Assembly: GCF_023264855.1 (NCBI RefSeq)
Contig: NZ_JAHFUW010000035.1
Coordinates: 1-46,614, forward strand
Reading direction: 5' to 3'
DNA length: 46,614 nt
Source of the DNA: Herbiconiux sp.
GTDB lineage: Bacteria; Actinomycetota; Actinomycetes; Actinomycetales; Microbacteriaceae
Part shown: piece by piece, positions 2,577-38,865 of the stretch
How the letters are laid out: each line of letters starts with the position of its first letter
Numbering within the stretch: position 1 is the first letter of the stretch
Made by a program: the position numbers and the translations under genes
The notes under the pieces: model-generated
What the model saw: the letters and a program-made list of their open reading frames with translations, nothing else
Database searches by the model: none
What the model was told of the DNA's origin: nothing

Positions 2577-2707
2577 TTTGACCCCCAAGGGGGTGACATA
2601 TCTTCAGTTCCACTTAATTTACCTGAATGAAATGTTCAGTCTTCCTTTCGTTACTGGGGCCCCCTAGCATGGCCGAATCCGTGTGAGCCGTGACTGCTAG
2701 GAGTTCC

Positions 2708-5700
2708 ATGTCTGCATCCGCCTGGAGAACCGCGAAAGCGATTCTCGCGACGATCGCGGGAGGTGCGCTGTTCGCAGCACCCCTCGTCGGCGTCGCATCA
2801 TCCGCCTCCGCCAGTGTCGACGGGGCCGGCGTCATCATCAACGAGGCCTACCTCAAGGGCGGCAGCGCCGGCGCCCCGTTCGCCAAGAAGTTCATCGAGC
2901 TCTACAACCCGGGCGAGGCCGCGGTGTCGCTCGACGGCTGGTCGCTGCAGTACCGCTCGGCCGGCGGATCCGGCGCCGCGAACGGCGTCGCGCCGCTCAC
3001 CGGCAGCATCGCTCCCGACGGCTACTTCCTCGTGCAGATCGACGGCAACGCCGCGAACGGCGAGGCTCTGCCCACGCCGGATCTCGACCTCGGCGGCACC
3101 ATCAACCCCTCGGGCACGAACGGCACGCTGATCCTCGCCGACACCACAACCGCGCTGGCCCCGGCGACCGGATCGGTGACGGGCGCCGACGACATCGTCG
3201 ACCTGCTCGGCTACGGCACCTCCAACACCTTCGAGGGCGCGGTCGCGGTCGTCGACGGCCCCAACGGCACGCCCAACTCGCTCGCGCGCACCGGATTCGC
3301 CGACACCGACAGCAACGCGGCCGACTTCGTCTCCACCGCGACCGTGACGCCGCAGAACTCCGGCGGGGGCACGGATCCGACCGACCCGACGGATCCCACC
3401 GACCCGACCGATCCGACCGACCCGACGATCACCTCGATCGCCGACATCCAGGGCTCGGGCGCCGCCTCGCCCCTCGCCGGCCAGACCGTCACCACCACGG
3501 GCGTCGTCACGGCGGCCTACGGCACCGGCGGCTTCGCGGGCTTCTACCTGCAGACCGAGGGGACCGGCGGCGCGATCGACTTCGCCACCCACACCGCCTC
3601 GGACGCGCTGTTCGTCTACTCGCCGGCCACCGCCGCATCCGTCGCCGTCGGCGACTACGTGCAGGTCACCGGCCCGGTCAGCGAGTACTTCGACCTCAGC
3701 CAGATCAGCGTCTCGAGCGCCGACGGGCTGGTGAAGCTCGACGCCTCCACCGTCACCGCCCCGGAGCCCGCCACGGTGGCGCTGCCCGCCGACGCCGGCC
3801 AGCGCGAGTCGCTGGAGGGCATGCTGCTCGCTCCGCAGGGCGAGTTCACGGTGAGCAACACCTACTCCACCAACCAGTACGCCGAGATCGGCCTGGCATC
3901 CGGCAGCACCCCGCTGCTGACCCCCACCGAGATCGCGCGCCCCGGCACCCCGGAGTACACCGCAGCGGTCGCCGACAACGCCGCCCGCGCGGTGACGCTC
4001 GACGACGGCGCGAGCCTCAACTTCCTGGGCTCGACGGAGAACAAGAACACCCCGCTGCCGTACCTCACGCAGGACGCGGCGATCACGGTCGGTTCCGCGG
4101 TCTCGTTCACGAGCCCGGTGATCTTCGACTACCGCAACAGCACCTGGAAGTTCCAGCCCACCACGCAGCTCACGGCCGACGGCGCTCTGCCGGCGACCTT
4201 CAGCGACGTGCGCGAGCAGGCTCCGGCCACCCTCGGCGGCGACATCCAGGTCGCCGGCTTCAACGTGCTGAACTACTTCACCACCACCGGTGACACGCTC
4301 ACCGGCTGCACCTTCTACACCGACCGCGAGGGCGACAACGTCACGGTGAACTCCGGATGCGACGCCCGAGGTGCGGCGGAGGCCGACGACCTCGAGCGCC
4401 AGCAGGCCAAGATCGTGGCCGCCATCAACGGCCTCGGCGCCGAGGTGGTGTCGCTGGAGGAGATCGAGAACTCGGTCAAGTTCGGCGACGACCGCGACGC
4501 AGCGCTCAGCACCCTCACCGACGCGCTGAACGAGGCCGCCGGCAGCGAGGAGTGGGCCTTCGTGCCCTCTCCCGCGGCCGACCAGCTGCCCGCGCTCGAC
4601 GCGCAAGACGTCATCCGCACCGCCTTCATCTACCAGAAGGCGGCCGTGGAGCCCGTCGGCTCCTCGCACGTGCTGATCGACCCGGCGTTCTCCAACGCCC
4701 GTCAGCCGCTCGCGCAGGAGTTCAAGCCGGCCGGTGCCACCACCGACGACGACGCCTTCATCGCGATCGTCAACCACTTCAAGTCGAAGGGTTCCGGATC
4801 GGGCGCCGACGCCGACCAGGGCGACGGTCAGGGCGCCTCCAACGCCTCCCGCGTCGCTCAGGCGAACGCGCTGCTGGCCTTCTCCGACGACCTGCAGAGC
4901 GAGCTCGGCACCAGCGACGTCTTCCTGATCGGCGACTTCAACGCCTACACGCAGGAAGACCCGGCGGTGGCGATCACCGACGCCGGCTACGTCGACCAGG
5001 GCTCCAAGACCGGGTCGTACAGCTACTCCTTCGACGGCCAGAGCGGTTCGCTCGACCACATCTTCGCCTCGCCCTCGGCCGACGCGAAGATCGACGGCGT
5101 CGACATCTGGAACATCAACTCGGGCGAGTCGATCGCCAAGGAGTACAGCCGCTTCAACTACAACGCGACGAACTTCTACGACGAGAGCGTGTTCCGCTCC
5201 AGCGACCACGATCCGGTGATCGTCGGCTACTCGTTCGGGGAGGCCGCCCCGACGACCGTCGACCTGAACCTGATCGACATCAACGACTTCCACGGTCGCA
5301 TCGACGCCAACACGGTCAAGTTCGCCGGCACGATCGAGCAGCTGAAGGCGGAGAACCCGAACTCGCTGTTCATCTCCTCCGGTGACAACGTGGGCGCCTC
5401 CCTCTTCGCCTCGAGCGTCGCCCAGGATCAGCCCACGATCGACGTGCTGAACGCGCTCGACCTGAAGACGAGCGCCGTGGGCAACCACGAGTTCGACCAG
5501 GGCTTCGCCGATCTGACCGACCGGATCATCGGATCCGACGACGACCCGAACGCGAAGTGGGACTACCTCGGCGCGAACGTCTACCTCAAGGGCACCGAGA
5601 CCCCGGCGCTGCCGGAGTACGCCATCGAGGAGGTCGCGGGCCTGAAGGTCGCGATCGCCGGTGCGATCACGCAGGAGACCCCGACGCTGGTCACCCCGGC

Positions 5701-8098
5701 CGGCATCTCGGGTCTCGACTTCGGCGACCCGGTCGACGCGGTCAACCGCGTCACGGCCGAACTGACCGACGGCGACGAGAGCAACGGCGAGGCGGATGTC
5801 ATCATCGCCAGCTACCACGAGGGTGCCGGCGCGGGACTGGTCGAGGGCGCGACCCTCGAGCAGGAGCTCGCCCAGGGCGGCGCGTTCGCGAAGATCGTGA
5901 ACGACACCGACCCCGCGGTCGCGGCCATCTTCACCGGCCACACCCACAAGCAGTACGCCTGGGACGGGCCCATCGCGGGCACCGACAAGACCCGCCCCGT
6001 GCTGCAGACCGGCAACTACGGCGAGAACATCGGCCAGGTCGTGCTCACGCTCGACGCCTCGACCGGTGAGCTCGAGAGCTACACCGCGAAGAACGTGGCG
6101 CGGGTGAAGGCGGCCACGGGCGCCACGCCCGCCGAGCAGGCGGAGCTGGATGCCGCGCTCGACGCCCAGCTCGTGGCGGCCTACCCGGCCGTCGCCGAGG
6201 TGAAGCAGATAACGGATGCGGCCCTCGCGGTCGCCGCCGAGATCGGCAACCAGCCGGTCGGCTCGGTCTCGGCCGACATCACCACCGCGTTCAGCGGCGG
6301 CGCCTACACCGGCCCCGACGGCACCTACGCCGGCGGGGGGCGCGACGACCGGGCCTCCGAGTCCACTCTCGGGAACCTGGTGGCCGACTCGCTGGTCGAC
6401 AGCCTCAGCGACCCCGACCGCGGTGGCGCGACCATCGGCGTGGTGAACCCGGGCGGCCTCCGCTCGGATCTCACCTTCGCGCCCGACGGAACCGTCACCT
6501 ACGCCGAGGCCAACGCGGTGCTGCCGTTCGTGAACAACCTCTGGACCACGTCGCTCACGGGTGCGCAGTTCAAGACGGTTCTCGAGCAGCAGTGGCAGAC
6601 CGACGCGCAGGGCAACGTGCCGTCGCGCCCGTTCCTGAAGCTCGGCCTCTCCGACAACGTGCAGTACACCTACGACGCTTCGGCGGCGCAGGGGTCGCAC
6701 GTGACGGGCATCTGGATCGACGGCGAGCCGATCGACCCGGCCGCCTCGTACCGGATCGGCACGTTCAGCTTCCTCACCTCGGGAGGCGACAACTTCCGTG
6801 AGCTGGCCAACGGCACGGGTGCCCGCGACTCCGGTCTGATCGACCGCGATGCGTGGATCTCGTACATCGGCGCCAACTCGCCGCTGTCGCCCGACTTCGG
6901 TCGCCAGGCCGTTCAGGTCACGGGCACGCCCACCGCTCCGGTCGAGCTCGGTTCGACGCTGGCCTTCGAGGTGTCGGGTCTCGACCTGACCTCGCTCGGA
7001 AGCCCGCAGAACACCGAGCTGACGGCATCCTGGACCGGATCGGCGGCGACGTTCGACCCGATCCCGGTGACCGACGGTGCGGCTTCGGTCTCGCTCGAGG
7101 TTCCGGCCGATGCGCCGGCCGACAGCGAGCTCGTGCTCACGGCGGCGCCCTCGGGCACCGAGGTGCGCGTCCGTGTCGACGTGACCGTCGTCCCGGGCCT
7201 CGAGACCGACCGGATCGGCGGCGCCGACCGGTTCGAGGTCGCCGTGAACACCTCCAAGGCAGGGTTCCCCGACGGTGCCGACACCGTCTACCTCGCCTCG
7301 GGTGCGGTGTTCCCGGATGCCCTCTCCGCGGCCCCGGCGGCGGCGAAGGCCGACGGACCGATCCTGCTCACGACCTCGAACACGGTGCCGCCCGCGGTGC
7401 GTGCCGAGATCACGCGGCTGAACCCGTCGAACATCGTCATCGTCGGTGGCACGAACACGGTCAGCAACGCCGTCGTGATCGAGCTGGCGGCTCTGGCGAA
7501 GATCAGCCGGATCGGTGGAGCGGATCGCTTCGAGGCCTCGCGGAACGTCGCAGCAGCCACCTTCCCCGATGGCGCCGACGTGGCCGTGCTTGCCACCGGT
7601 GCGACCTTCGCCGATGCCCTCTCGGCGGGAGCGGCGATCGACGGTGAGGGTCCGGTCATCCTGGTCGACGGTTCGAAGCCGACGCTGGATCTGGCCACCG
7701 CGGCCCTGCTCGACGAGCTGGGCGTCTCGCAGATCGTCGTCGCCGGCGGGGAGCTGTCGGTCTCGGCCGGCATCTTCACCCAGGCGCAGTCGATCGCGGA
7801 CACGGTGCGCCTCGGCGGCGAAGACCGCTACGCGGCCACGCGGACGATCAACGGCTACTTCTTCGACGCAGCGGACCGCGTGCTGCTGGCCACCGGGGCG
7901 AACTTCCCCGATGCGCTGGCCGGCTCGGCCTTCGGCCCGAAGATCGACGCCCCGCTGTTCACGGTGCCCGGCACCTGCGTGCCGGCCACCACGCTGGCGC
8001 AGATCCAGGCCCTGGGAGCCACCCGGGTCACCCTCCTCGGCGGTGAGAACACCCTCACTCCCGCGGTAGCCGACCTGGCGGTGTGCCCCGCGGGCTAG
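2708..8098 (+). CDS. Secreted multidomain nuclease / 5'-nucleotidase with cell wall-binding repeats
   Basis: A 1,796-residue exported enzyme. The order is: signal peptide (1 to about 37, ending SASA); lamin-tail-like domain (about 40-165, VIINEAYLKG, FIELYNPG); a DPT repeat linker (about 222-242, 9-bp DNA repeat); an OB-like nuclease accessory region; an endonuclease/exonuclease/phosphatase domain (about 513-845: SLEEIENS, IGDFNAY, SDHDP); a metallophosphoesterase of 5'-nucleotidase type (about 853-1100: DINDFHGR, SGDN, GNHEFDQG, TGHTHKQY); the 5'-nucleotidase C-terminal domain (about 1175-1390); a beta-rich spacer; and three cell wall-binding repeat 2 units (from about 1500, 1599 and 1700, RIGGADRFE type). 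It would degrade extracellular DNA/RNA and dephosphorylate the nucleotides while held on the envelope. I chose ATG 2708 over GTG 2690 because the AGGAG site lies between them. Catalytic motifs of both enzyme domains are intact. Confidence 0.93.
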   Translation: MSASAWRTAKAILATIAGGALFAAPLVGVASSASASVDGAGVIINEAYLKGGSAGAPFAKKFIELYNPGEAAVSLDGWSLQYRSAGGSGAANGVAPLTGSIAPDGYFLVQIDGNAANGEALPTPDLDLGGTINPSGTNGTLILADTTTALAPATGSVTGADDIVDLLGYGTSNTFEGAVAVVDGPNGTPNSLARTGFADTDSNAADFVSTATVTPQNSGGGTDPTDPTDPTDPTDPTDPTITSIADIQGSGAASPLAGQTVTTTGVVTAAYGTGGFAGFYLQTEGTGGAIDFATHTASDALFVYSPATAASVAVGDYVQVTGPVSEYFDLSQISVSSADGLVKLDASTVTAPEPATVALPADAGQRESLEGMLLAPQGEFTVSNTYSTNQYAEIGLASGSTPLLTPTEIARPGTPEYTAAVADNAARAVTLDDGASLNFLGSTENKNTPLPYLTQDAAITVGSAVSFTSPVIFDYRNSTWKFQPTTQLTADGALPATFSDVREQAPATLGGDIQVAGFNVLNYFTTTGDTLTGCTFYTDREGDNVTVNSGCDARGAAEADDLERQQAKIVAAINGLGAEVVSLEEIENSVKFGDDRDAALSTLTDALNEAAGSEEWAFVPSPAADQLPALDAQDVIRTAFIYQKAAVEPVGSSHVLIDPAFSNARQPLAQEFKPAGATTDDDAFIAIVNHFKSKGSGSGADADQGDGQGASNASRVAQANALLAFSDDLQSELGTSDVFLIGDFNAYTQEDPAVAITDAGYVDQGSKTGSYSYSFDGQSGSLDHIFASPSADAKIDGVDIWNINSGESIAKEYSRFNYNATNFYDESVFRSSDHDPVIVGYSFGEAAPTTVDLNLIDINDFHGRIDANTVKFAGTIEQLKAENPNSLFISSGDNVGASLFASSVAQDQPTIDVLNALDLKTSAVGNHEFDQGFADLTDRIIGSDDDPNAKWDYLGANVYLKGTETPALPEYAIEEVAGLKVAIAGAITQETPTLVTPAGISGLDFGDPVDAVNRVTAELTDGDESNGEADVIIASYHEGAGAGLVEGATLEQELAQGGAFAKIVNDTDPAVAAIFTGHTHKQYAWDGPIAGTDKTRPVLQTGNYGENIGQVVLTLDASTGELESYTAKNVARVKAATGATPAEQAELDAALDAQLVAAYPAVAEVKQITDAALAVAAEIGNQPVGSVSADITTAFSGGAYTGPDGTYAGGGRDDRASESTLGNLVADSLVDSLSDPDRGGATIGVVNPGGLRSDLTFAPDGTVTYAEANAVLPFVNNLWTTSLTGAQFKTVLEQQWQTDAQGNVPSRPFLKLGLSDNVQYTYDASAAQGSHVTGIWIDGEPIDPAASYRIGTFSFLTSGGDNFRELANGTGARDSGLIDRDAWISYIGANSPLSPDFGRQAVQVTGTPTAPVELGSTLAFEVSGLDLTSLGSPQNTELTASWTGSAATFDPIPVTDGAASVSLEVPADAPADSELVLTAAPSGTEVRVRVDVTVVPGLETDRIGGADRFEVAVNTSKAGFPDGADTVYLASGAVFPDALSAAPAAAKADGPILLTTSNTVPPAVRAEITRLNPSNIVIVGGTNTVSNAVVIELAALAKISRIGGADRFEASRNVAAATFPDGADVAVLATGATFADALSAGAAIDGEGPVILVDGSKPTLDLATAALLDELGVSQIVVAGGELSVSAGIFTQAQSIADTVRLGGEDRYAATRTINGYFFDAADRVLLATGANFPDALAGSAFGPKIDAPLFTVPGTCVPATTLAQIQALGATRVTLLGGENTLTPAVADLAVCPAG

Positions 8099-28167: not shown

Positions 28168-28261
28168 GGGTAAGAGCCCCCAGTCCGGGGGTGCCGAACC
28201 ACCGGGATCCGGTGTCGCACCGAACACCGTGCGTCCGACCCCCGAACCTGAGGAGCCCACC

Positions 28262-28708
28262 ATGGCCAACGCCGCAACCCCCACCCCCGCCACCGTCGGG
28301 ACCACCGTCCCGACGACGACCACCCAGACCGCGCTCGGCAAGACCGTCATCAATGATGGTGTCGTGGCGAAGGTCGCCGGTATCGCCGCCCGCGAGGCCC
28401 GCGGCGTGTACGCCCTCGGTGGCGGAGCGGCCCGCGCGTTCGGCGCCATCCGCGAGGCCGTGGCCGGCACCGACCAGACCCAGGGCATCAGCGTGGAGGT
28501 CGGCGAGACCCAGGTCGCGGTCGACGTCACCATCGTCGCCGACTACCCCACCCCGCTGCAGGACGTCGCCGACGGTGTGCGTTCGAACATCATCCGCGCC
28601 GTCGAGACCATCGTGGGTCTTGAGGTCACCGAGGTCAACGTGACCGTCAACGACGTGCACCTGCCCTCCGATGACAAGGACGAGGCTGCTGAGGCGCGAG
28701 TCCAGTGA
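28262..28708 (+). CDS. Asp23/Gls24 family envelope stress response protein
   Basis: 148 residues. A Thr/Pro-rich leader is followed by a canonical Asp23 domain (about 30-135): GKTVINDGVVAKVAGIAARE, GVYALGGG, ISVEVGETQVAVDVTIVADY, DVADGVRSNIIRAVETIVG, EVNVTVNDVHLP. In Firmicutes this family coats the membrane under cell-wall stress and is held by AmaP. It is the first gene of the plus-strand operon; ATG 28262 has GAGGAG upstream. Its stop overlaps the next start (GTGA). Confidence 0.92.
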   Translation: MANAATPTPATVGTTVPTTTTQTALGKTVINDGVVAKVAGIAAREARGVYALGGGAARAFGAIREAVAGTDQTQGISVEVGETQVAVDVTIVADYPTPLQDVADGVRSNIIRAVETIVGLEVTEVNVTVNDVHLPSDDKDEAAEARVQ

Positions 28709-28902
28709 CCTCCTCCGCAACCCGCACCGGAATCCTGGTGGGGGCGGTCCTCGCCCTCACCTGGGTGATCGTCGGTTTCTGGGCCTTCTTCTTCGTCGCG
28801 ATCGCCATGGCGATCGGCGCGGTGGTCGGCCGGATCGTCGAGGGCAAGCTCGACGTGTCGGCCCTGGTCGGCGCGTTCCGCGGAAAGCGCTCCTCCTCGT
28901 GA
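28705..28902 (+). CDS. DUF2273-type small integral membrane protein
   Basis: 65 residues with two hydrophobic stretches (about 8-28 and 30-44) and a short basic tail (GKLDVSALVGAFRGKR). The size, the RTGILVGAVLALTWVIVGFW pattern and the place directly after Asp23 match the DUF2273 family. It starts with GTG overlapping the Asp23 stop. It probably anchors or organises Asp23 proteins at the membrane; that role is inference. Confidence 0.85.
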   Translation: MTSSATRTGILVGAVLALTWVIVGFWAFFFVAIAMAIGAVVGRIVEGKLDVSALVGAFRGKRSSS

Positions 28903-29294
28903 GCGCCGCCGCGATCCTGCCCGCCCCCGCCGAGGCCGCGCAGGCGCCCGACCGGGGCCGGAACCGGATCACGGCGAAGGCCCTCGACCGCATCGTCTCG
29001 GCCGTCGCCGCCGAGGCGCTCGAGGTCGACGCCCGCAGCGTCGGCGTCGAACTGGGCGATGACAAAGGCCTCCTCGCGGTGGCCGTCACCAGCCCCATCC
29101 GGGTTCCCTCGCTCGAGGGCATCCGCGCCGCCGGATCGCTGCCGGCCGGCACCGGCGGCACCGTGCTCGAGCGGGCCGCCGCGGCCCAGGAAAGCATCCG
29201 GGAACGCGTGCGCGCGCTGACCGGCTCCACCGTGGGCCGGGTGACGGTGCGGGTCGCCCGCGTCGACATCCGATCAGAGAAGAGAGTGCGATGA
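28899..29294 (+). CDS. Asp23-like protein (second in operon)
   Basis: 131 residues. The core RNRITAKALDRIVSAVAAEAL, VGVELGDDKGLLAVAVTSPI, VLERAAAAQESIRERVRALTG and GRVTVRVARVDI has the helix-strand-helix-strand order of the Asp23 family, though shortened between the two strands. The GTG start overlaps the DUF2273 stop, and its own stop overlaps the next ATG. No membrane segment. Confidence 0.75.
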   Translation: MSAAAILPAPAEAAQAPDRGRNRITAKALDRIVSAVAAEALEVDARSVGVELGDDKGLLAVAVTSPIRVPSLEGIRAAGSLPAGTGGTVLERAAAAQESIRERVRALTGSTVGRVTVRVARVDIRSEKRVR

Positions 29295-29995
29295 GCATCA
29301 CCCAGTCACCGGATGCGGCCACCGCCGCGGCATCCGGAGCCGGAGCCGGCGCCTTGTCGCCTGCAGGCGGGCCGGCCGCCGGCCGCGCACCCCTCGCTAC
29401 CGCAGACCCGAGCCGCCCCGACCACACGGCCGTGCACCGCCGGGTCAGCCGCCGTGAGACGCACTCGCCCCGGTCCCTCCTGGCCATCCTGCTGGCCGTC
29501 GTGCTCGTGGTCGTCTTCGCCTGGATCGGCACCGAGATCGCGCTGTCGCTGTTCGGCTTCGGCGCCCTCCTCGTGGCCCCCGCCGACATGTTCACGTCGG
29601 TGCTGAACCTGCCGGCGCTTCCCGTGGCGGTTCTCGCCGCCGCCGGGATCGTGGTGGCCGTGGTCGGCGTGCTGCTCGTCATCGCCGCGGTGTCGCCCGG
29701 TCGACGCCCCCGGCACACGCTCGCCTCCGAGCGCAGCGCCGTGGTGATCGACAACGAGGTGATCGCCTCGGCGCTCGCCCGGCACGCCTCGCTGGCCGCC
29801 GACGTCGATCCCGACAACGTGACCGTCTCGGTCTCGCACCGCCTCGCCGAGGTGCGGCTGGTGCCGAGCGCGGGCCGCCCCATCGACCGCGCCGCCGTGC
29901 AGACCGAGGTCGAGAAGCACCTCGCCGCGTACGACCTGCGGCCCCGCCTCCGGGCGCGGGTACGGGTGACCGAGCAGTCGAAGGTGGGCGCATGA
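29291..29995 (+). CDS. DUF6286-type membrane protein
   Basis: 234 residues. A disordered Ala/Gly-rich N-terminus (1-55) is followed by two membrane helices (about 61-85 and 108-135) and a soluble C-terminal domain (about 145-228: VVIDNEVIASALARHASLAAD, NVTVSVSHRLAEVRLVP, LRPRLRARVRVTEQ). This matches the DUF6286 proteins that accompany actinobacterial Asp23 genes. It is coupled at both ends by ATGA overlaps. Confidence 0.8.
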   Translation: MSITQSPDAATAAASGAGAGALSPAGGPAAGRAPLATADPSRPDHTAVHRRVSRRETHSPRSLLAILLAVVLVVVFAWIGTEIALSLFGFGALLVAPADMFTSVLNLPALPVAVLAAAGIVVAVVGVLLVIAAVSPGRRPRHTLASERSAVVIDNEVIASALARHASLAADVDPDNVTVSVSHRLAEVRLVPSAGRPIDRAAVQTEVEKHLAAYDLRPRLRARVRVTEQSKVGA

Positions 29996-30594
29996 ACGCC
30001 ACCAACCGGGCCCTGAACCGGATGCTCGTGCTCGTCATCGGCCTGCTGTTCGTGATCATCGGCGCCGGAGCTGCCGCCCTGGCCTTCGTGCCGATAGTGC
30101 GGGACGCCTGGGTCGCGGCATCCGGAACCGTCGCCTCGCAGGTCACCGGCTTCGTGCAGAGCAACCCGCTCGCCGGCACCGGTGCGAGCTGGCCGCTGGC
30201 CGCAGCTCTCGCGCTGCTGGTGATCGCGATCGTGCTGCTGATCGTCTTCGTGGTGCGCCAGGGCGGCGGGCACACCCGCACCGCCGTCACCGAGCGCGCC
30301 GACGACGGCACCGTCCAGATCGACTCCGCGGTCGCCGAGCACGCGCTCGAAGACGCGCTGGCCACGCATCCGGAGTTCGTCGCCTCGCACGTCTCGACCT
30401 ACGCCGTGCGCCGCACGCCGGTGCTGAAGGTCTCCGTCACCTGCCGTCGCGGGGTCTCGCCCGCCGACGCCTCGCGGATCGTCGACGACACCCTGACCGC
30501 GCTCGACCGGCTTCTCGGCCGGGAGCTGCCGGCCCTCGTCCAGCTGAGCGGCGGGTTCCGTGCCCGCGTCCGCTCCACCACACGGCTGCAGTGA
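29992..30594 (+). CDS. AmaP-like membrane anchor of the Asp23 cluster
   Basis: 200 residues. Two helices (about 10-34 and 60-85) flank a short loop, and a cytoplasmic domain (about 95-195: IDSAVAEHALEDALATHPEF, TPVLKVSVTCRRGVSPADA, DDTLTALDRLLGRELPALVQ) follows. The two-helix plus soluble-domain plan is that of the alkaline-shock membrane anchor AmaP. The ATG overlaps the preceding stop. A hairpin spans its own stop codon. Confidence 0.75.
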   Translation: MNATNRALNRMLVLVIGLLFVIIGAGAAALAFVPIVRDAWVAASGTVASQVTGFVQSNPLAGTGASWPLAAALALLVIAIVLLIVFVVRQGGGHTRTAVTERADDGTVQIDSAVAEHALEDALATHPEFVASHVSTYAVRRTPVLKVSVTCRRGVSPADASRIVDDTLTALDRLLGRELPALVQLSGGFRARVRSTTRLQ

Positions 30595-30613
30595 GTCCCC
30601 CGCCTCACTGCAG
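30586..30613 (+). terminator. Hairpin spanning the stop codon of the AmaP-like gene
   Basis: CTGCAGTGAG (30586-30595) and CTCACTGCAG (30604-30613) form a perfect 10-bp stem with an 8-nt loop; the stop codon is inside the left arm. Probably partial termination or mRNA end protection before the CsbD gene. Confidence 0.55.
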
Positions 30614-30703
30614 TCCCGACCACCCTTCCGGCCCTCACGCGGCCACGGAGGGCGCCATCGGGAACACCCCCGAAGAGAACACCCCAGAGAGAAGGAGCTC
30701 GAA

Positions 30704-30877
30704 ATGAGTGCATCCGACAAGATCAACAACGCCGCCGAAGACCTGAAGGGCAAGGCCAAGGAGGCCCTCGGCAAGGTCACCGGAGACGACCAGAAGGTCG
30801 CCAAGGGCAAGGGCGACCAGGTCTCCGCCGACGCCAAGAAGGCCGGCGAGAACGTGAAGGACGCCTTCAAGCACTGA
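30704..30877 (+). CDS. CsbD family stress protein
   Basis: 57 residues, very Lys/Asp/Ala-rich and free of aromatic residues except one Phe. The DKINNAAEDLKGKAKEALGK and DQKVAKGKGDQ repeats are diagnostic for CsbD, a general-stress protein family of unknown mechanism. A strong GAAGGAG site lies 6 nt before the ATG. Its position right after the Asp23 operon fits a common stress response. Confidence 0.93.
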   Translation: MSASDKINNAAEDLKGKAKEALGKVTGDDQKVAKGKGDQVSADAKKAGENVKDAFKH

Positions 30878-30933: not shown

Positions 30934-30965
30934 GATCGTTAACCTTCGTCGTGCACAATGACCCC

Positions 30966-31295
30966 ATGTCCAAGAAAATCGATTCCGCGCTCGCGAAGCT
31001 GACGGAAGCGCTGAAGTACCATGCCGAGGTCGTCTCCGCCGACAAGGTGCGTGCCGACAAGGTCGCCCGGTCGAACGCGAAGGTGCGCCGCACGGCCGCC
31101 GCCTACGCCTCGGCCGTGTACTCGCGCACGGCGACCGAGAGCCCCTTCCTCGACATCCCCGACCCGCGGCTCGCCGAAGAGACCGTGGCGTCGCTGAAGG
31201 CCGAGCGCGACGCCATCAAGGCGCGCAAGGTCGCGAGCAAAGACGCCGCACACAAGGGCAAAGACGAGGCACCCCAGAGCGACTCCGGCTCGTGA
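30966..31295 (+). CDS. Small Lys/Ala-rich helical protein coupled to the peptide synthetase gene
   Basis: 109 residues, highly charged and predicted helical (MSKKIDSALAKLTEALKYHA, VRADKVARSNAKVRRTAAAY, then ASLKAERDAIKARKVASKDA). One short Pro-containing break (FLDIPDPRLAEE) sits in the middle and a KGKDEAPQSDSGS tail follows. I do not recognise a family. Its stop codon overlaps the GTG start of the synthetase (GTGA at 31292-31295), so it is translated with it. It might be an accessory or regulatory subunit. An in-frame GTG at 30951, 5 nt after a TAACCT box, is an alternative start. Confidence 0.7.
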   Translation: MSKKIDSALAKLTEALKYHAEVVSADKVRADKVARSNAKVRRTAAAYASAVYSRTATESPFLDIPDPRLAEETVASLKAERDAIKARKVASKDAAHKGKDEAPQSDSGS

Positions 31296-34200
31296 GCTCT
31301 GCCGCTCAGGCCCCCGGTCATCCTCAGGCCGTTCTCGACCGGAGTGCGCAGGCGGCGGAGCCGCGGACCCTCCTCGACGTCTTCCGCCAGTCGGTGGCCG
31401 AGCATCCGGAGGTCTCGGCGCTCGAAGACGCCCGCGGGGCGCTGAGCTACCGCGAGCTGATGGCGCGCGTGCTCGCCACCGCGGCCGAGCTGCACGCCGC
31501 CGGGGTGCGCCGCGGCGACCGCGTCGGCATCCGGATGGAGTCGGGGCGTCGCGAACTGTACATCTCCATCCTCGCCGTGCTCGCCGCCGGGGCCGCCTAC
31601 GTGCCCGTCGACGCCGACGACCCCGAGGAGCGGGCGACACTCGTCTTCGGCGAGGCCGCCGTCGCCGGCATCATCACGGGCACCGGGCACTACAGCCCGC
31701 GCACGGCCCGGCAGCCCGAGACGGTTCCGGATGCCGCCGGCGCGGTCGCCGCATCCGGTGCCGCCCCGTCATCCGAGGCCGACGTCGACGCCTCAGCTCC
31801 CGGGCCCGCTGAGGTCGTCGCATCCGGGGCCGACGTCACCGCCCTCACCCCCGCCGAGGCCGGCACCCGCCTCTTCGCCCGCGTCGAGCCGCCGCACGCG
31901 AGCACCGCGGCGCTGCCGATCCTCTCCCCGCCGCGGCCCCACGACGACGCCTGGATCATCTTCACCTCCGGCTCCACGGGCACGCCCAAGGGCGTCGCCG
32001 TGAGCCACCGCTCGGCGGCCGCCTTCGTCGACGCCGAGTCGCGCCTCTTTCTGCAGGACGAGCCGATCGGCCCGGGCGACCGCGTTCTGGCCGGCCTCTC
32101 GGTGGCCTTCGACGCCTCCTGCGAGGAGATGTGGCTGGCCTGGGCGCACGGCGCCTGCCTCGTGCCGGCCCCGCGCTCGCTCGTGCGCAGCGGCATGGAT
32201 CTCGGCCCGTGGCTGATCACCCGCGACATCACCATCGTCTCGACCGTGCCGACGCTCGCCGCCCTCTGGCCGGCGGAGTCGCTCGAGAACGTGCGCCTGC
32301 TGATCTTCGGCGGCGAGGCCTGCCCGCCCGAGCTGGGGGAGCGCCTGTCCTCCGGCGGCCGCGAGGTGTGGAACACCTACGGCCCCACCGAGGCGACCGT
32401 CGTGGCCTGCGCCGCCCCGCTCGGCGTGCCCGGCCCGGTGCGGATCGGACTGCCGCTGGACGGCTGGAACCTCGCGGTCGTCGATGCGTCTGGAGCGCTC
32501 GTGGGCGAAGGCGAGGTCGGTGAGCTGATCATCGGCGGCGTCGGCCTTGCGCGCTACCTCGACCCCGCGAAGGACGCCGAGAAGTACGCGCCCATGCCGA
32601 GCCTCGGGTGGGAGCGCGCCTACCGTTCGGGCGACCTCGTGCGCTTCGACACCGAGGGACTGGTGTTCCAGGGCCGGGCCGACGACCAGGTGAAGGTCGG
32701 CGGGCGGCGGATCGAGCTCGGCGAGATCGAGGCCGCGCTGCAGCAGCTGCCCGGGATCTCGGGCGCCGCCGTCGCCGTGCGCACGACCGCGGCCGGCAAC
32801 CAGATGCTGGTGGGCTATCTCGTGGCCGCCGATCCGCAGACCTTCGACCGCGACGACGCCGTGCGCCGCCTTCGTGAAGAACTCCCCGCGGCGCTCGTGC
32901 CCTTGCTCGCCGTGCTCGAGGACCTGCCCACGCGCACCTCGGGCAAGGTCGACAAGGCCGCCCTGCCCTGGCCGTTGCCCGGGATGGCCGGCAGCACCGA
33001 GGGCGTCGGCGACACCGGGAGCCTCGACGACCTCGACCCCGGGCTCCGGCAGGTGGCGGCGCTCTGGACGGCGGTTCTCGGCGCGCCCGTCGCCGATCCG
33101 GCCGCCAACTTCTTCGACCTCGGCGGAGGGTCGCTCGCGGCCGCGCAGCTGGTGGCCGGCCTTCGCGAGATCGACCCGGAGTTCACCGTGGCCGACGTGT
33201 ACTCGCACCCGCGGCTCGGGGCGATGGCCGCCGAGATCGCGCTGCGCGTGCCCGGCTTCGCCGATCCGTCGGGTGAGGGCCGCGCGGGCGGAACGGCCGG
33301 CGACGACTCCTCCGGTGCCGCCGTGCGCGAGACCCCGCTCCGGATGCGCGTGCTGCAGACCGTGCTCGGCGTGCCGCTCTTCGTGCTCGCGGGCCTGCGC
33401 TGGCTGGTCTATCTGCTCACGGCCTCGGCCATCCTGCAGCCCTTCGGCGACTTCGCGTTCCTCCCCGTCGTGCCGTGGTGGGCGCTGGTGATCGGCCTGA
33501 TCCTGTTCGCGACGCCCTTCGGCCGGATGGGCATCTCGGTGCTCGCCTCCCGTCTTCTGCTCAGGGGCCTCACCGGCGGCGACTACCCGCGCGGCGGCAG
33601 CTGGCACCTGCGGCTCTGGCTCGCCGAGCAGATCGCGCACCAGGTCGGCGCGGTCAGCCTGGCCGGCGCTCCGTGGATCAACTACTACGCCCGCGCGCTC
33701 GGCGCCCGCATCGCCGACGACGTCGACCTGCACTCGCTGCCCCCCATCACGGGCCTGCTCACCATCGGCCGCGGCGCCTCGATCGAGCCCGAGGTCGACC
33801 TCTCCGGTTACTGGATCGACGGCGACACCGTGCGCGTCGGCGCCGTGCGCATCGGGGCCGGCAGCACCGTCGGCGCCCGCAGCACGCTGCTGCCCGGCGC
33901 CCGCATCGGCAAGCGCGCCGAGATCGAACCGGGCTCCTCGGTGTTCGGGCGGGTGCCCTCCGGCCAGCGCTGGGCCGGCAGCCCCGCCCGCCGCGTGGGC
34001 AAGTCGCGCGAGTGGTGGCCCGCCGAGCGGCCCGCCCGCAAGACCGGCTGGCTCGTCGCCTACGGCACCTCCTCGGTGGCGATGTCCCTGCTGCCGCTGC
34101 TGGCCTTCTCGGTCGGCGGCCTCATCGTCGCGGCCTCCATCGAGGGCTCCGCGTCGCTCGGCGAGGCCGTGGCCCGCAGCGCCCTCGCGCTGGTTCCCGC

Positions 34201-35533
34201 CACCTTGGCCGCCGGAGTCGTGCTCGCCGGTCTCGTGCTGCTCGCCACGCGTCTGCTCGGCCTTGGCGTCACCGAGGGCATCCACGCGGTTCGCGGCCGC
34301 GTCGGCTGGCAGCTCTGGTCGACCGAGCGCCTGCTCGACCTCTCGCGCACCATCCTCTTCCCGCTCTACTCGGGCCTGTTCACGCCGGTCTGGCTCCGGA
34401 TGCTCGGGGCCGACATCGGCCGCGACGTCGAGGCCTCGACGGTGCTGCTCATCCCCGCCATGACCACCGTGCGCGACGGCGCGTTCCTCGCCGACGACAC
34501 TCTGGTGGGCGCCTACGAGCTCGGCGGTGGGCGGATGCGCGTGGCACGCGCCGAGATCGGCGAGCGGGCCTTCCTCGGCAACTCGGGCATGGCCGCGGCC
34601 GGTCACACGGTGCCGCGCGACGGGCTCGTGGCCGTGCTCTCCTCGGCTCCACGCAAGGCGAAGGCCGGCTCCTCGTGGCTGGGCTCGCCCGCCGTGCGCC
34701 TGCGCCGCACCGTCAACCAGGGCGACCCGAGCCGCACCTTCGCGCCGCCGGCCCGGCTGCGGGTGGCGCGCATCCTGTGGGAGCTGTGCCGCATCCTGCC
34801 CGTGTTCGTCACCTGTGCGATCGGTCTCGGCGTGCTGTTCGCGCTCGCCGCGCTCACGCTGACGTTCGGGGCGCTCGTGGCTGCGCTGCTCTCGGGTGTG
34901 GTGCTGCTGGTGGCCGGAGCGGTGGCCGCGTCCATCAGCACGGTCGCGAAATGGGCGCTGATCGGGCGTATCCGGGCGGGCGAGCATCCGCTCTGGTCGG
35001 GATTCGTGTGGCGCAGCGAGGTGTCGGACACCTTCACCGAGATGGTGGCCGCGCCCTGGTTCGCGCAGTCCGCGGCGGGCACGCCCGCGCTGGTGTGGTG
35101 GCTGCGCAGCCTCGGTGCGCGCATCGGCCGGGGCGTCTGGATCGACACCTACTGGCTGCCCGAGGCCGACCTCGTCACCCTCGCCGACGCCACGACGGTG
35201 AACCGCGGATGTGTGGTTCAGACGCATCTGTTCCATGATCGAGTCATGAGCTTGGACACGGTCATCCTCGAACGGGGCGCGACGCTCGGCCCGCACAGCG
35301 TCATCCTGCCGGCCGCGCGCATCGCCGCCGCGGGCACGGTGGGCCCGGCATCGCTCGTGATGCGGGGCGAACTGGTGCCGCGCGGATCGCGCTGGAGCGG
35401 CAACCCGATCGGGCCGTGGCGCGAGGTGCGCACCTCGGAGTACCGCTCGCCCGAGGCGATCTCGGCCGCTGTGGCGTCCGCCGCCGCGGCATCCGGCGCA
35501 TCCGCTGCCTCCGGCGCGCAGGGCGCCGCGTGA
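31292..35533 (+). CDS. Pls/PosA-type membrane-bound non-ribosomal peptide synthetase
   Basis: 1,413 residues. The adenylation domain (about 25-555) has IIFTSGSTGTPKGVAVSH (about 223), NTYGPTEATV, YRSGDLVRF, GRADDQVKVGGRRIELGEIE and the catalytic Lys near 550 (RTSGKVDK). The carrier domain has the phosphopantetheine Ser near 613 (LGGGSLA). About six membrane helices (near 687-757, 918-990 and 1160-1215) alternate with three hexapeptide-repeat-like segments. No condensation or thioesterase domain with classical motifs is seen. This is the plan of the epsilon-poly-L-lysine synthetase family. By manual alignment with GrsA the specificity residues read D-A-E-S-I-G-T-V-V-K; Glu at the third position fits a basic amino acid such as lysine. 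An Ala/Pro/Ser-rich stretch (about 140-215) lies between early and late A-domain motifs. Product unknown. Confidence 0.9.
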   Translation: MSSAAQAPGHPQAVLDRSAQAAEPRTLLDVFRQSVAEHPEVSALEDARGALSYRELMARVLATAAELHAAGVRRGDRVGIRMESGRRELYISILAVLAAGAAYVPVDADDPEERATLVFGEAAVAGIITGTGHYSPRTARQPETVPDAAGAVAASGAAPSSEADVDASAPGPAEVVASGADVTALTPAEAGTRLFARVEPPHASTAALPILSPPRPHDDAWIIFTSGSTGTPKGVAVSHRSAAAFVDAESRLFLQDEPIGPGDRVLAGLSVAFDASCEEMWLAWAHGACLVPAPRSLVRSGMDLGPWLITRDITIVSTVPTLAALWPAESLENVRLLIFGGEACPPELGERLSSGGREVWNTYGPTEATVVACAAPLGVPGPVRIGLPLDGWNLAVVDASGALVGEGEVGELIIGGVGLARYLDPAKDAEKYAPMPSLGWERAYRSGDLVRFDTEGLVFQGRADDQVKVGGRRIELGEIEAALQQLPGISGAAVAVRTTAAGNQMLVGYLVAADPQTFDRDDAVRRLREELPAALVPLLAVLEDLPTRTSGKVDKAALPWPLPGMAGSTEGVGDTGSLDDLDPGLRQVAALWTAVLGAPVADPAANFFDLGGGSLAAAQLVAGLREIDPEFTVADVYSHPRLGAMAAEIALRVPGFADPSGEGRAGGTAGDDSSGAAVRETPLRMRVLQTVLGVPLFVLAGLRWLVYLLTASAILQPFGDFAFLPVVPWWALVIGLILFATPFGRMGISVLASRLLLRGLTGGDYPRGGSWHLRLWLAEQIAHQVGAVSLAGAPWINYYARALGARIADDVDLHSLPPITGLLTIGRGASIEPEVDLSGYWIDGDTVRVGAVRIGAGSTVGARSTLLPGARIGKRAEIEPGSSVFGRVPSGQRWAGSPARRVGKSREWWPAERPARKTGWLVAYGTSSVAMSLLPLLAFSVGGLIVAASIEGSASLGEAVARSALALVPATLAAGVVLAGLVLLATRLLGLGVTEGIHAVRGRVGWQLWSTERLLDLSRTILFPLYSGLFTPVWLRMLGADIGRDVEASTVLLIPAMTTVRDGAFLADDTLVGAYELGGGRMRVARAEIGERAFLGNSGMAAAGHTVPRDGLVAVLSSAPRKAKAGSSWLGSPAVRLRRTVNQGDPSRTFAPPARLRVARILWELCRILPVFVTCAIGLGVLFALAALTLTFGALVAALLSGVVLLVAGAVAASISTVAKWALIGRIRAGEHPLWSGFVWRSEVSDTFTEMVAAPWFAQSAAGTPALVWWLRSLGARIGRGVWIDTYWLPEADLVTLADATTVNRGCVVQTHLFHDRVMSLDTVILERGATLGPHSVILPAARIAAAGTVGPASLVMRGELVPRGSRWSGNPIGPWREVRTSEYRSPEAISAAVASAAAASGASAASGAQGAA

Positions 35534-36864
35534 TTGGCCGCGGTGTCGCGTTCTCCGGAGATCCCTACACGCCGGGCGTCGGCACCTGGTCGTATCGGGT
35601 GCATTCCTACGACCTGACGCTCGACTACCGGGTCGAGACCAATCGCCTCGACGGCGTCGCGGTGCTGCAGGCCGAGGCCGTGGTGGAGCTGGACCGCATC
35701 ACGCTCGACCTCTCGAAGCTCAAGGCCTCGAAGGTCTGGCTCGACGGCCGGCGCCTGCCGCGGGTGAGCCAGAGCACGCACACGCTCACCGTCCGGCCGG
35801 AGGCGCCGATCGCCGCCGGAACCGCGTTCGAACTGCGGATCGAGTACGGCGGGCGCCCCGGGCCGCGCCGCAGCACCTGGGGTCACATCGGCTGGGAAGA
35901 GCTCGACGACGGAGTGCTCACGGCCTCGCAGCCCTCCGGATCCTCCACCTGGTTCCCCTGCAACGACCGGCCGGGCGACAAGGCCGCGTACCGCATCCGG
36001 ATCTCCGCCGAGCAGGACTACACCGTCGTCTGCAGCGGCGAGCTGCTCGAGAAGAGCACCCGCAGCGGCCGCACCTCCTGGCTCTACGAGCAGACCGCTC
36101 CGACCGCCGCTTACCTCGCGACGGTGCAGATCGGCCGGTATCAGCGACGAACAGATGCCCCGGGCCGCACGCGCAGCAAGCCGCCCGTCCCCGTCGACTA
36201 CGCCTACCCGGCCGCGCTCGACTCCCGCGCCCGCGCCGACTTCGACGGCCTCGCGCACATGCTGCGGTTCTTCGGGGCGACCTTCGGGCCCTATCCGTTC
36301 TCGCGGTACACGGTGGTGGTCACCGACGACGAGCTGGAGATCCCGCTCGAGGCGCAGGCGCTGGCGATCTTCGGTTCGAACCACGTCGACGGCGAGGGCG
36401 GATCGGAGCGGCTGATCGCGCACGAGCTGGCGCACCAGTGGTTCGGCAACAGCGTGGGGCTGGCCGCCTGGAAGGACATCTGGCTGAACGAGGGCTTCGC
36501 CTGCTACGCCGAGTGGCTGTGGTCGGAGGAGAACGGCGGGCCGTCGGCGGCGTCGCTCGCCGCGGAGCACCACGCGCGGCTGCGCGCGGCCCCGCAGGAT
36601 CTCGTGATCGGCGAGCCGGGTGCCGCCTCGATGTTCGACGACCGCGTCTACAAGCGCGGCGCCCTCACGCTGCACGCGCTCCGGCTGCGCCTCGGCGACG
36701 AACCGTTCTTCGGGCTGCTGCGCGCCTGGACGGCGGAGCACGCGCACGCGACGGCCGACACGGCCGCCTTCGTGGCGCTGGCCGAATCCCGCACGTCCCT
36801 CCCCCTGCACGACTTCTTCGGCGCCTGGCTGCACACGGAGTCCCTCCCCGCCCTAGCCCCCTGA
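35530..36864 (+). CDS. M1-family zinc aminopeptidase coupled to the synthetase
   Basis: 444 residues. An N-terminal beta domain (about 15-195) precedes the catalytic domain with zinc ligands His298 and His302 (HELAH, catalytic Glu299) and Glu321 (NEGFACYAEW), exactly the HEXXH-X18-E spacing. The usual GxMEN exopeptidase motif is replaced by EIPLEAQ with Glu274 kept. The C-terminal helical domain of PepN is largely missing. No signal peptide is seen. The GTG start overlaps the synthetase stop (GTGA), so it is co-translated with it. It may trim or degrade the polymer made by the synthetase; this is inferred from coupling and from the aminopeptidases known to degrade epsilon-polylysine in producers. 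Confidence 0.9.
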   Translation: MIGRGVAFSGDPYTPGVGTWSYRVHSYDLTLDYRVETNRLDGVAVLQAEAVVELDRITLDLSKLKASKVWLDGRRLPRVSQSTHTLTVRPEAPIAAGTAFELRIEYGGRPGPRRSTWGHIGWEELDDGVLTASQPSGSSTWFPCNDRPGDKAAYRIRISAEQDYTVVCSGELLEKSTRSGRTSWLYEQTAPTAAYLATVQIGRYQRRTDAPGRTRSKPPVPVDYAYPAALDSRARADFDGLAHMLRFFGATFGPYPFSRYTVVVTDDELEIPLEAQALAIFGSNHVDGEGGSERLIAHELAHQWFGNSVGLAAWKDIWLNEGFACYAEWLWSEENGGPSAASLAAEHHARLRAAPQDLVIGEPGAASMFDDRVYKRGALTLHALRLRLGDEPFFGLLRAWTAEHAHATADTAAFVALAESRTSLPLHDFFGAWLHTESLPALAP

Positions 36865-36988: not shown

Positions 36989-37834
36989 TCAGGCAGGGGA
37001 CGGATGCGCCAGGTGGGCGGTGAGGTCGCCCAGGGGGAGGCGCTTCCAGTTGATGACCGGGACTACGGGCTTATCGGGCTTCTGCGCCTTGCCGTCCTTG
37101 CTGCTCGTGCCCTCCTTCGGCGCGCGAAGGCCGATGGCCACGCTCGCGCGCACGGCGGGATCCAGCCGCAGGTCCGCGATCGCGAAGCGCGGTGCGGGTT
37201 CCTCTCTCAGGCTCTCGGCCGGGGCGGTGCCCGGTGCGCTCGGCGCAGGCGGCAGCGTCGCCGTGATCGCCCCCTCGCCGGAGGCGATCCGCACCTCCGC
37301 CGGGTCGAGCGTCAGCCCTCGGCCGTCGGCCTTCAGCGCGGCCTCCATCCGGGTCCAGTGCTGCACCGGCTCCCAGTTGCGCCCGGCAGGCCGCGCGGCG
37401 GGCGGGATGAGCGCACTCACCGCGGCCAGCCCGGCGGTCGTCGCATCCGCGGGTTCGACGTCGATGCCCACGGGTCCGCGCCACATCGCCGCCACGGCGA
37501 CCCCCGCGGCGCAGTGCGCGATGCTCAGGCTGATCCGCCGGCCCTTGGCTGAGCGCAGCTCCGCCTCAGGCCGCCCGTGCGGCCCGCCGCACACGGCGCA
37601 GTGGGCGCTGACGACGATCTCGGCCGGCGAGAGCGCACCGTCGAGCAGCTCCGACGCCAGCATCCGGATGGCGGCCCGCCCCACCACGAACCGCCCGGCG
37701 GCGGACTCGTCCGCGGTCCCCGCGAACCGCTCGCGCTCCGGCGCGCTCAGCAGCGGCAGCAGCGCCTCCACCGCGTCGGGCGCGACGGCACCCGCCGAGA
37801 GCGGCGTCCACCGCACGTGCACCCGAGGAGTCAT
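36989..37834 (-). CDS. Sfp/EntD-type 4'-phosphopantetheinyl transferase
   Basis: 281 residues. It transfers phosphopantetheine from CoA to the Ser of carrier domains. Visible motifs are GRFVVGRAAIRMLAS (P1 region), LSIAHCAAGVAVA (SxxH type), VGIDVEPAD (Mg-binding Asp/Glu) and HWTRMEAALKADGRGL (W-x3-E-x3-K). A long Pro/Lys-rich insertion lies before the last strand. The start (ATG 37834) overlaps the PPK2 stop (ATGA). It is convergent with the carrier-domain synthetase operon and is its most likely activating enzyme, although it may serve other carriers too. Confidence 0.88.
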   Translation of the reverse strand: MTPRVHVRWTPLSAGAVAPDAVEALLPLLSAPERERFAGTADESAAGRFVVGRAAIRMLASELLDGALSPAEIVVSAHCAVCGGPHGRPEAELRSAKGRRISLSIAHCAAGVAVAAMWRGPVGIDVEPADATTAGLAAVSALIPPAARPAGRNWEPVQHWTRMEAALKADGRGLTLDPAEVRIASGEGAITATLPPAPSAPGTAPAESLREEPAPRFAIADLRLDPAVRASVAIGLRAPKEGTSSKDGKAQKPDKPVVPVINWKRLPLGDLTAHLAHPSPA

Positions 37835-38751
37835 CGCAGGGGCCGGTGCTCGCCGCGCTCGTAGACGTCGACGGCCGATCCCACGATCGACGCGTCGGGC
37901 ACCCCGGCGACCTCCGCATCCTTGTCGTCGTAGTCGAACAGGCTCAACACGTGCCGCATCGCCTCGATCCGGGCTCGCTTCTTGTCGTTGGACTTCACCA
38001 CCGTCCAGGGTGCCGTCGCCGTGTCGGTCGCGGCGAACATGGCTTCCTTCGCATCCGTGTACCGCTGCCACTTGTCGAGCGACTCGAGGTCCATCGGCGA
38101 GAGCTTCCACTGCCGCACCGGGTCGACCATCCGGATGGCGAAGCGGGTGCGCTGCTCGTCGGCCGAGACCGAGAACCACAGTTTCACGAGGTCGATCCCG
38201 GATCCGGTCAGCATCGACTCGAACATCGGCACCTCGCGGATGAACTCGGCGTACTCCGCGTCGCTGCAGAAGCCCATCACGCGTTCGACGCCCGCCCGGT
38301 TGTACCAGGAGCGGTCGAAGAACACCATCTCGCCGGCGGCCGGCAGGTGCTTCACGTAGCGCTGGAAGTACCACTGCCCGGCCTCGCGCTCGGTGGGCTT
38401 CTCGAGCGCCACCACGCGGGCGCCGCGCGGATTCAGATGCTCCATGAAGCGCTTGATCGTGCCGCCCTTGCCCGCGGCGTCGCGCCCTTCGAACACCACC
38501 ACGAGCCGGCGCCCGTCGCGCTTGATCCAGTTCTGCAGCTTCAGCAGCTCGATCTGCAGCAGCCGTTTGGTGCCCTCGTACTCGGTGCGGTCCATCCGCT
38601 GGTCGTAGGGGTAGCCCTCGCGCCAGGTGTCGACGGCGCTGCCGTCGGTGCGCACCAGCACGGGGTCGTCATCGTCGTCGTCGCGCACGCTGTAGCCGAG
38701 CAGGGAGTCCAACGCCGGGGGGACGGCCTGGCCGCCCGAGAGGATCGTCAC
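37831..38751 (-). CDS. ppk2: Polyphosphate kinase 2 family protein
   Basis: 306 residues. The P-loop FEGRDAAGKGGTIKRF, the FFDRSWYNRAGVERVMGF Walker B/lid region and the WKLSPMDLESLDKW segment are those of PPK2, which moves phosphate between polyphosphate and nucleotides. An acidic run (DDDDDD) lies near the N-terminus. Start: GTG 38751 is preferred because a TACTGT -10 box ends exactly 7 nt upstream (leaderless); GTG 38760 is the longer option. It is coupled to the phosphopantetheinyl transferase gene. Direction (ATP use or regeneration) cannot be told from motifs here. Confidence 0.94.
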   Translation of the reverse strand: MTILSGGQAVPPALDSLLGYSVRDDDDDDPVLVRTDGSAVDTWREGYPYDQRMDRTEYEGTKRLLQIELLKLQNWIKRDGRRLVVVFEGRDAAGKGGTIKRFMEHLNPRGARVVALEKPTEREAGQWYFQRYVKHLPAAGEMVFFDRSWYNRAGVERVMGFCSDAEYAEFIREVPMFESMLTGSGIDLVKLWFSVSADEQRTRFAIRMVDPVRQWKLSPMDLESLDKWQRYTDAKEAMFAATDTATAPWTVVKSNDKKRARIEAMRHVLSLFDYDDKDAEVAGVPDASIVGSAVDVYERGEHRPLR

Positions 38752-38758
38752 GCCCCGC

Positions 38759-38764
38759 ACAGTA
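38759..38764 (-). promoter_or_regulatory. -10 box 7 nt before the ppk2 start (leaderless)
   Basis: On the minus strand TACTGT ends 7 nt before GTG 38751, placing the transcript 5' end at the start codon. No ribosome site is present. Confidence 0.45.
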
Positions 38765-38865
38765 CCGCCCCCAGGCGAAGCGCAGGTGAACGGACGGGGT
38801 CGTCTCGCCGCGCCTGCGTCAAAGTGCTGCGAGGCCTCACCCCCGGGCCCCGATCAGCGGATGCG

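Follow-up and report, generated by a model that had tools for sequence, protein, structure and literature searches.

A predicted epsilon-poly-L-lysine synthesis and turnover operon in Herbiconiux with a lysine-rich gene coupled ahead of the synthetase gene

The DNA discussed here, called the window, is a stretch of 46,614 nucleotides from Herbiconiux sp. (NCBI RefSeq assembly GCF_023264855.1, contig NZ_JAHFUW010000035.1, positions 1 to 46,614 of the forward strand). At 30966-36864 it carries three overlapping genes that encode, in order, a lysine-rich protein of 109 residues (P109), a synthetase of the Pls/PosA type (Pls) and a zinc peptidase of the M1 family. A preliminary description of the window had joined these genes by GTGA overlaps, and the open reading frame calls bear out the three frames and both 4-bp junctions. 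Taken as a whole, the operon is very likely to make and turn over epsilon-poly-L-lysine, with the M1 enzyme serving as a depolymerase of the PldII type; this explanation draws on sequence and on analogy with studied systems. Epsilon-polylysine is an antimicrobial polymer and a food preservative. To our knowledge its natural role and its control are poorly understood. The pairing of pls with pldII has already been published, and the core of the operon is therefore a known kind of system. No report was found of a coupled lysine-rich gene before the synthetase gene, or of the signs of a response to phosphate shortage that are described below for related bacteria. The features of the locus are collected in Table 1.

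Table 1. Genes and sequence elements of the pls locus, in window coordinates
Feature	Position (strand)	Length	Description
P109 gene	30966..31295 (+)	109 aa	GTGA overlap with pls
pls	31292..35533 (+)	1413 aa	Pls/PosA-type synthetase: adenylation domain, carrier (Ser614), membrane/hexapeptide C-terminal half; TIGR02353 match 33350-35410
M1 zinc peptidase gene	35530..36864 (+)	444 aa	PldII-like by position
Sfp-type 4'-phosphopantetheinyl transferase gene (predicted)	36989..37834 (-)		Convergent to the pls operon; ATG overlaps the PPK2 stop (ATGA)
PPK2 polyphosphate kinase gene	37831..38760 (-)		First gene of the PPK2-phosphopantetheinyl transferase pair; TIGR03707 377 bits, cut-off 302
Promoter-like element GTTAACCTTCGTCGTGCACAATG	30938..30960 (+)		Ahead of the P109 gene: one PHO half-site GTTAACC and a -10-like CACAAT near the ATG (leaderless-like)
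PHO-box-like tandem repeat GTTCACCTGCGCTTCGCC	38774..38791 (-)		2 mismatches; ahead of the PPK2 start

In Pfam, Pls matches AMP-binding, AMP-binding_C, PP-binding and Hexapep; neither a condensation nor a thioesterase domain is matched at E<=0.01, as the preliminary description had proposed. Its assignment to the Pls type also holds, the C-terminal half aligning with all of TIGR02353 (model positions 1-695) at 722 bits against a cut-off of 423.1; Pls is the sole match above this cut-off in its genome. The carrier motif that contains the serine reads LGGGS. A simple hydropathy scan of the C-terminal half gives five membrane segments (691-709, 721-739, 932-950, 965-983 and 1194-1212), and did not resolve the sixth, the plan of an epsilon-poly-L-lysine synthetase being three soluble segments with six transmembrane helices around them.

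The adenylation domain matches 7wew, the solved adenylation domain of an epsilon-poly-L-lysine synthetase, with a phmmer E of 3.5e-186, and its core is 72% identical to the 7wew fragment; searches of the class and f35-family samples with the Streptomyces albulus adenylation fragment gave nothing above 77% identity. The pocket code DAESIGTVVK is that of 7wew at 10/10 aligned positions, the ten positions having been chosen through what we take to be the GrsA anchors, and it is found in all 22 aligned rows (the window and 21 relatives). Since this code equals that of the solved lysine enzyme, L-lysine is the predicted monomer. The cationic homopolymer of the preliminary description is narrowed to poly-L-lysine by the substrate code, and nothing points to the capping that its alternative product, a capped peptide, called for. 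The PosA study states that pocket position 2 governs chain length and is Ala for lysine (PMC10522769). PosA, the delta-poly-L-ornithine synthetase of Acinetobacter baumannii, has the same plan of adenylation, carrier and membrane C-terminal domains but carries Met instead of Ala at this position and uses ornithine (PMC10522769).

Some variation was seen among Pls proteins. The window Pls has an Ala-rich low-complexity insertion of 78 residues in the adenylation domain (residues ~137-214); it measures 13-64 residues in 18 of 21 relatives, 73-168 in the other three and ~11 in 7wew. One genome compared at the order level (G041) holds several Pls matches or pieces on contigs C1, C11 and C14. L083 has a second frame at position 13213 that shares just 22% identity with Pls and perhaps encodes another adenylating enzyme.

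Pfam assigns the third protein to Peptidase_M1 and Peptidase_M1_N, and the protein has the HELAH-X18-E signature and the catalytic Tyr. The active-site residues H298, E299, H302, E321 and Y374 are invariant in the 99 rows aligned (101 rows, of which 2 were dropped for stops). The relatives compared are the best 80 of at least 579 and 21 further loci, 3 of which belong to genomes already in the 80; another 20, more distant loci were hand-picked from the match lists of a class sample (34 genomes) and of family f35 (82 genomes). The M1 gene lies directly downstream of pls on the same strand in 80/80 relatives and 21/21 further loci and follows pls in 19/20 of the distant ones, which upholds the M1 partner named in the preliminary description. 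Of the two neighbours whose conservation with the synthetase it had made a test, M1 is kept beside pls nearly everywhere and P109 only patchily. A 4-bp overlap between pls and the peptidase gene was scored in 62 of the 117 loci having a called pls (119 loci submitted). M1 exopeptidases carry a GXMEN motif; by eye, the window protein has IPLEAQ at the likely site, and P272 and E274 of this region are invariant in 99/99 rows.

Two published systems can be compared directly with the window. The pls and pldII genes of S. albulus share an operon, the peptidase gene following directly downstream with a 4-bp overlap (PMC4361855); the synthetase there is of the same family, and its ten-residue lysine pocket, that of 7wew, is identical. 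What the window shows besides is the coupled lysine-rich gene of 109 codons in front and the convergent PPK2-phosphopantetheinyl transferase pair behind. Corynebacterium variabile and other coryneform bacteria, among which Microbacterium is named, likewise have an actinobacterial, non-Streptomyces Pls with a linked peptidase; in C. variabile the two genes form an operon, and its synthetase yielded epsilon-polylysine when expressed in S. coelicolor (PMC8117764). In contrast to the window and its relatives, an upstream lysine-rich gene, a phosphopantetheinyl transferase and a PHO box go unmentioned in the excerpted Results of that paper.

The first gene of the operon is less easily placed. P109 contains 11.9% lysine, against a background median of 1.6% over 993 called proteins, and has a pI of 9.5. 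It is predicted to fold as three helices (predicted local distance difference test score, pLDDT, 85). P109 has no match in Pfam or NCBIfam at E<=0.01, and its model has none in the PDB at E<=0.001 (best 0.26). Among 299 genomes of the family, counted by hand from match listings with Pls taken as present at E<=1e-100, 58 have P109, 117 have Pls and 37 have both; P109 thus occurs in 21/58 genomes without a Pls match, and 80/117 Pls genomes are without P109. The two genes lie within 10 kb of each other in 9 of the 37 genomes (4/11 genera; 5e-5 under a rough chance model), and six of the nine, with distances of 2-9 kb, are from one genus, g5, which includes Frondihabitans. The P109-pls junction of G063, from another genus, is an identical GTGA overlap. 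P109 is 38 bp upstream of pls in L121/L195 and divergent from it in L086. In 13 other Herbiconiux genomes the P109 family member is on another contig or far off (fragmented drafts limit these distances), and there is no P109 match in the Herbiconiux genomes G002 and G003. In many genomes P109 stands amid genes of a housekeeping type, which by eye look like aspS/proC/trk or purQ neighbourhoods. With P109 found both in genomes lacking Pls and at a distance from pls, its place at pls is not obligatory; the recurring GTGA coupling shows that it is not a single case either. The idea of P109 as an obligate subunit of Pls was dropped on account of this patchy distribution. The proposal of the preliminary description that P109 is a new accessory factor may or may not hold: on one side, another genus has the GTGA coupling too and unrelated proteins rich in lysine and alanine precede pls elsewhere; on the other, P109 is also found where Pls is missing and is absent from most Pls genomes.

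The promoter of the window operon is its genome's only exact match to GTTMACCTTCRN{4,8}CAYAATG. In near relatives without P109 at pls (L065, L066, L067/L085 and L068) a promoter of the P109 type stands directly on pls, and the pls of L068 keeps the ATGTCC start. It looks as if these relatives lost P109 from an ancestral P109-pls pair. The shared promoter motif was considered as proof of a regulon, but loss of P109 in these loci explains it better. On a P109 tree (100 columns, long branches) the linkage to pls needs at least three changes, and on the Pls tree it needs five; the linkage may be either ancestral or repeated.

The position before pls is also occupied in other genera. From 124 loci submitted, 113 were readable and gave 41 open frames immediately ahead of pls, including some artefacts of the caller. 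Thirteen encode basic proteins rich in lysine and alanine: three P109 (window, L195 and L196), eight from Microbacterium, one from Leifsonia and one from Labedella. The thresholds of composition were fixed after the upstream frames had been inspected; 5/969 other proteins of 80-400 residues pass them, of which two are also before pls (Rhodoglobus L090 and Leifsonia L091) and three are P109s. A C-terminal motif, GYS[RK][LM]xKAxL (GYSRLTKA-tailed), is common to the proteins of Microbacterium, Leifsonia and Rhodoglobus. The Labedella protein has no blastp match to the other upstream proteins. Homology of P109 to these proteins was considered and rejected, with no blastp match at 0.01 and no match to the P109 profile at 1e-6 in those loci. 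Coupling to pls is tight (gap <=4 bp or overlap) in the window, in G063 and in eight Microbacterium loci. Unrelated proteins of the same odd composition thus stand in the same place, and composition may therefore matter. It could do so through a gate on lysyl-tRNA supply where the coupling is tight, or through binding of polyanions. The gaps of 44 and 63 bp in Leifsonia L091 and L093, with a PHO-type site between the genes, and of 227 bp in Rhodoglobus speak against the lysine gate as a general rule. In L089 the gene just 5' of pls (3588-5060) encodes an efflux protein of the DHA2/EmrB type (TIGR00711 above cut-off), a candidate polymer exporter or resistance pump. An upstream gene of L086 (2984-4558) has a similar N-terminus, and P109 lies in between.

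On the other side of the operon, the convergent gene is predicted from sequence and a structural model to encode an Sfp-type phosphopantetheinyl transferase. The model has a pLDDT of 90.5, and its best Foldseek match is 4mrt, Sfp with coenzyme A and a peptidyl carrier protein (E 2.3e-11); Pfam ACPS is matched by 23/28 members of the alignment, the window copy being under the cut-off (22.1 against 25). In 69/101 loci (three genomes counted twice) pls has a transferase gene no more than 4 kb away. Transferases of this kind have the motif WxxKEA. The clade of the window enzyme reads WTR[MVLI]EA, having lost the Lys ahead of the catalytic Glu and kept the Glu and the later Lys. PPK2 adjoins the transferase gene in 8/101 loci, six of them from Herbiconiux relatives and the others L086 and L089. 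Introduction of a PPK2 raised the yield of epsilon-polylysine in S. albulus (PMC10012588). Directly 5' of the operon, at 28229-30877 (+), lie an Asp23-family gene (Pfam) and its neighbours, followed by what by eye is a small CsbD-like protein.

Phosphate signals recur at this locus. The Streptomyces PHO box consists of two GTTCACC units 11 nt apart (PMC4415409). A GTTMACC tandem of this spacing with <=1 mismatch precedes pls in 18/95 loci, the other 77 being without a site at this stringency. Spacings of 8, 9, 10, 13 and 14 nt gave no loci and 12 nt gave two, and 23/809 control regions upstream of other genes reach <=1 mismatch. In 53 loci (0.89 Mb, all centred on pls) there are 27 strong sites, with one place in L080 counted twice, and 26 of them are at pls: 25 in the stretch that reaches 1.5 kb upstream from the pls anchor and makes up 8% of the bases, and one, in L091, right before pls. 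The remaining site is on the other strand and falls at the 5' end of a gene for a PHO4 phosphate transporter. Similar sites, as listed, are all in the pls intergenic region but for two (L084 and L140). Fourteen of the 27, from Microbacterium and its kin, face away from pls toward a divergent PstS-type gene (PstS by TIGR00975 above cut-off in L099, PBP_like_2 in L096, similar N-termini in others). The repeats face pls in 11 loci of other genera (L072, L074, L080, L082, L086, L087, L088, L091, L093, L111 and L112). Many relatives thus have a PHO box in front of pls or a PstS-type gene next to it, and the locus is therefore probably tied to phosphate status across them.

The window genome has 10 tandem sites with <=1 mismatch, and the reversed pattern gives 1; two of the 10 are before pstS and a PHO4 transporter gene, and eight, by eye, are not before a phosphate gene. 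Its sole perfect tandem precedes pstS (L274, contig C73), downstream of a frame that we take to encode PPK1. This site has the same form as those of the Streptomyces PhoP regulon (PMC4415409); the window pls operon, in contrast, has one half-site. The link to phosphate for the window itself would depend on weaker sites. The repeat ahead of PPK2, GTTCACCTGCGCTTCGCC, with 2 mismatches, has similar counterparts in L069, L070 and L071 and looser ones in L065, L066, L068 and L086; none was seen in L089. No tie of pls to PhoP is apparent in titles and the starts of abstracts, or in passages of PMC9195005 and PMC10012588. Elsewhere in the window, an 1802-residue protein (2690-8098, +) has LTD, Metallophos, 5'-nucleotidase C-terminal and CWB2 domains; a tandem GTTMACC-type site at 2510, with 2 mismatches, is ~180 bp upstream, and this gene may be phosphate-regulated as well.

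The following scheme is proposed. Pls would adenylate L-lysine and load it onto its own carrier domain, which would probably be primed by the neighbouring Sfp-type transferase. The membrane-bound C-terminal half would then polymerise the lysine by way of amide bonds to its side chain, and the co-translated M1 enzyme would act as a PldII-type depolymerase that shields the producer. Repression of PldII reduces self-tolerance (PMC9223678). Every residue of epsilon-polylysine has its free alpha-amine next to the scissile carbonyl, and internal cuts would therefore be conceivable for an aminopeptidase-type site whose S1 pocket is open. P109, a lysine-rich helical protein recruited ahead of pls, could act as a lysine-supply gate on pls translation or as a polyanion binder, or it could be a passenger.

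A number of points weigh against this scheme. The tie of the window M1 enzyme to S. albulus PldII would follow from position and literature. PldII is described as lying outside the membrane (PMC9223678), and no signal peptide or membrane segment was seen in the window protein by hydropathy or by eye. The mode of PldII is itself disputed, being of the endo type in one account (PMC8506220) and residue by residue from the N-terminus in another (PMC9223678), and inactivation of Pld and PldII was reported to have no effect on production or chain length (PMC8506220). C. variabile itself produced no epsilon-polylysine in culture (PMC8117764). One distant locus, L272, whose Pls is 37% identical, has no M1 match. 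The phosphopantetheinyl transferase neighbour is absent from 32/101 loci and from 19/20 of the distant ones, being present in 1/20. As for the phosphate link, no tandem PHO box was found before the window pls operon, the best tandem having 3 mismatches beside the single half-site.

Could the same genes serve another purpose? The synthetase might make a different cationic homopolymer, or merely short lysine oligomers, and related synthetases with other pockets do take ornithine, diaminobutyrate, diaminopropionate or beta-lysine (PMC10522769). This is quite improbable for the window enzyme, as all ten pocket residues, including the Ala at the chain-length position, are those of the lysine enzyme, and a peptidase typically shares the operon of lysine enzymes, unlike that of the other three in the comparison (PMC8117764). 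The M1 enzyme might in turn be a general aminopeptidase for peptide turnover with no tie to the polymer. Other M1 enzymes (~29-44% identity) do sit elsewhere in many genomes, but identity is 48-78% for the orthologue linked to pls, which comes immediately after pls in almost every locus, and the Streptomyces counterpart breaks down epsilon-polylysine (PMC8117764, PMC4361855, PMC9223678); a general role is very improbable. Synthesis of epsilon-poly-L-lysine by Pls and its turnover by the M1 enzyme is the preferred account of the core.

That P109 is a passenger with a cellular job of its own, which landed with its promoter ahead of pls, has nearly an even chance of being right. The genomes that have one gene and not the other, the housekeeping-like settings of P109 and the closest relatives, whose promoter sits directly on pls in what resembles a clean loss, all fit a passenger. 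Its proximity to pls across four genera (though six of the nine genomes are of one genus), the exact GTGA coupling in G063 and the unrelated lysine- and alanine-rich proteins that fill the same slot in other genera do not. Likewise, the PHO signal might mostly be the promoter of a pstS gene next to pls, with pls itself outside phosphate control. The sites that point off toward the divergent PstS or PBP_like_2 gene and the lone half-site of the window favour this, but the repeats that face pls in 11 loci of other genera oppose it, and such an explanation is on the unlikely side. A wider proposal joins both themes: production of epsilon-polylysine in Microbacteriaceae would be a response to phosphate starvation, and the slot before pls would be a functional module by which Pls is made only with plentiful charged lysyl-tRNA where the genes are tightly coupled, and/or by which a polyanion is covered against the polycation. 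It is offered tentatively and, as a whole, is rather unlikely to hold.

For the core of the operon, the M1 partner of the lysine polymerase hints at how an aminopeptidase-type site might act along a side-chain-linked polymer. If it is true that pls belongs to the phosphate-starvation regulon of many soil and plant bacteria, a natural trigger for epsilon-polylysine production would become testable. A lysine-rich gene coupled before a lysine-consuming polymerase would, if that proposal is true, be an unusual and simple supply gate.

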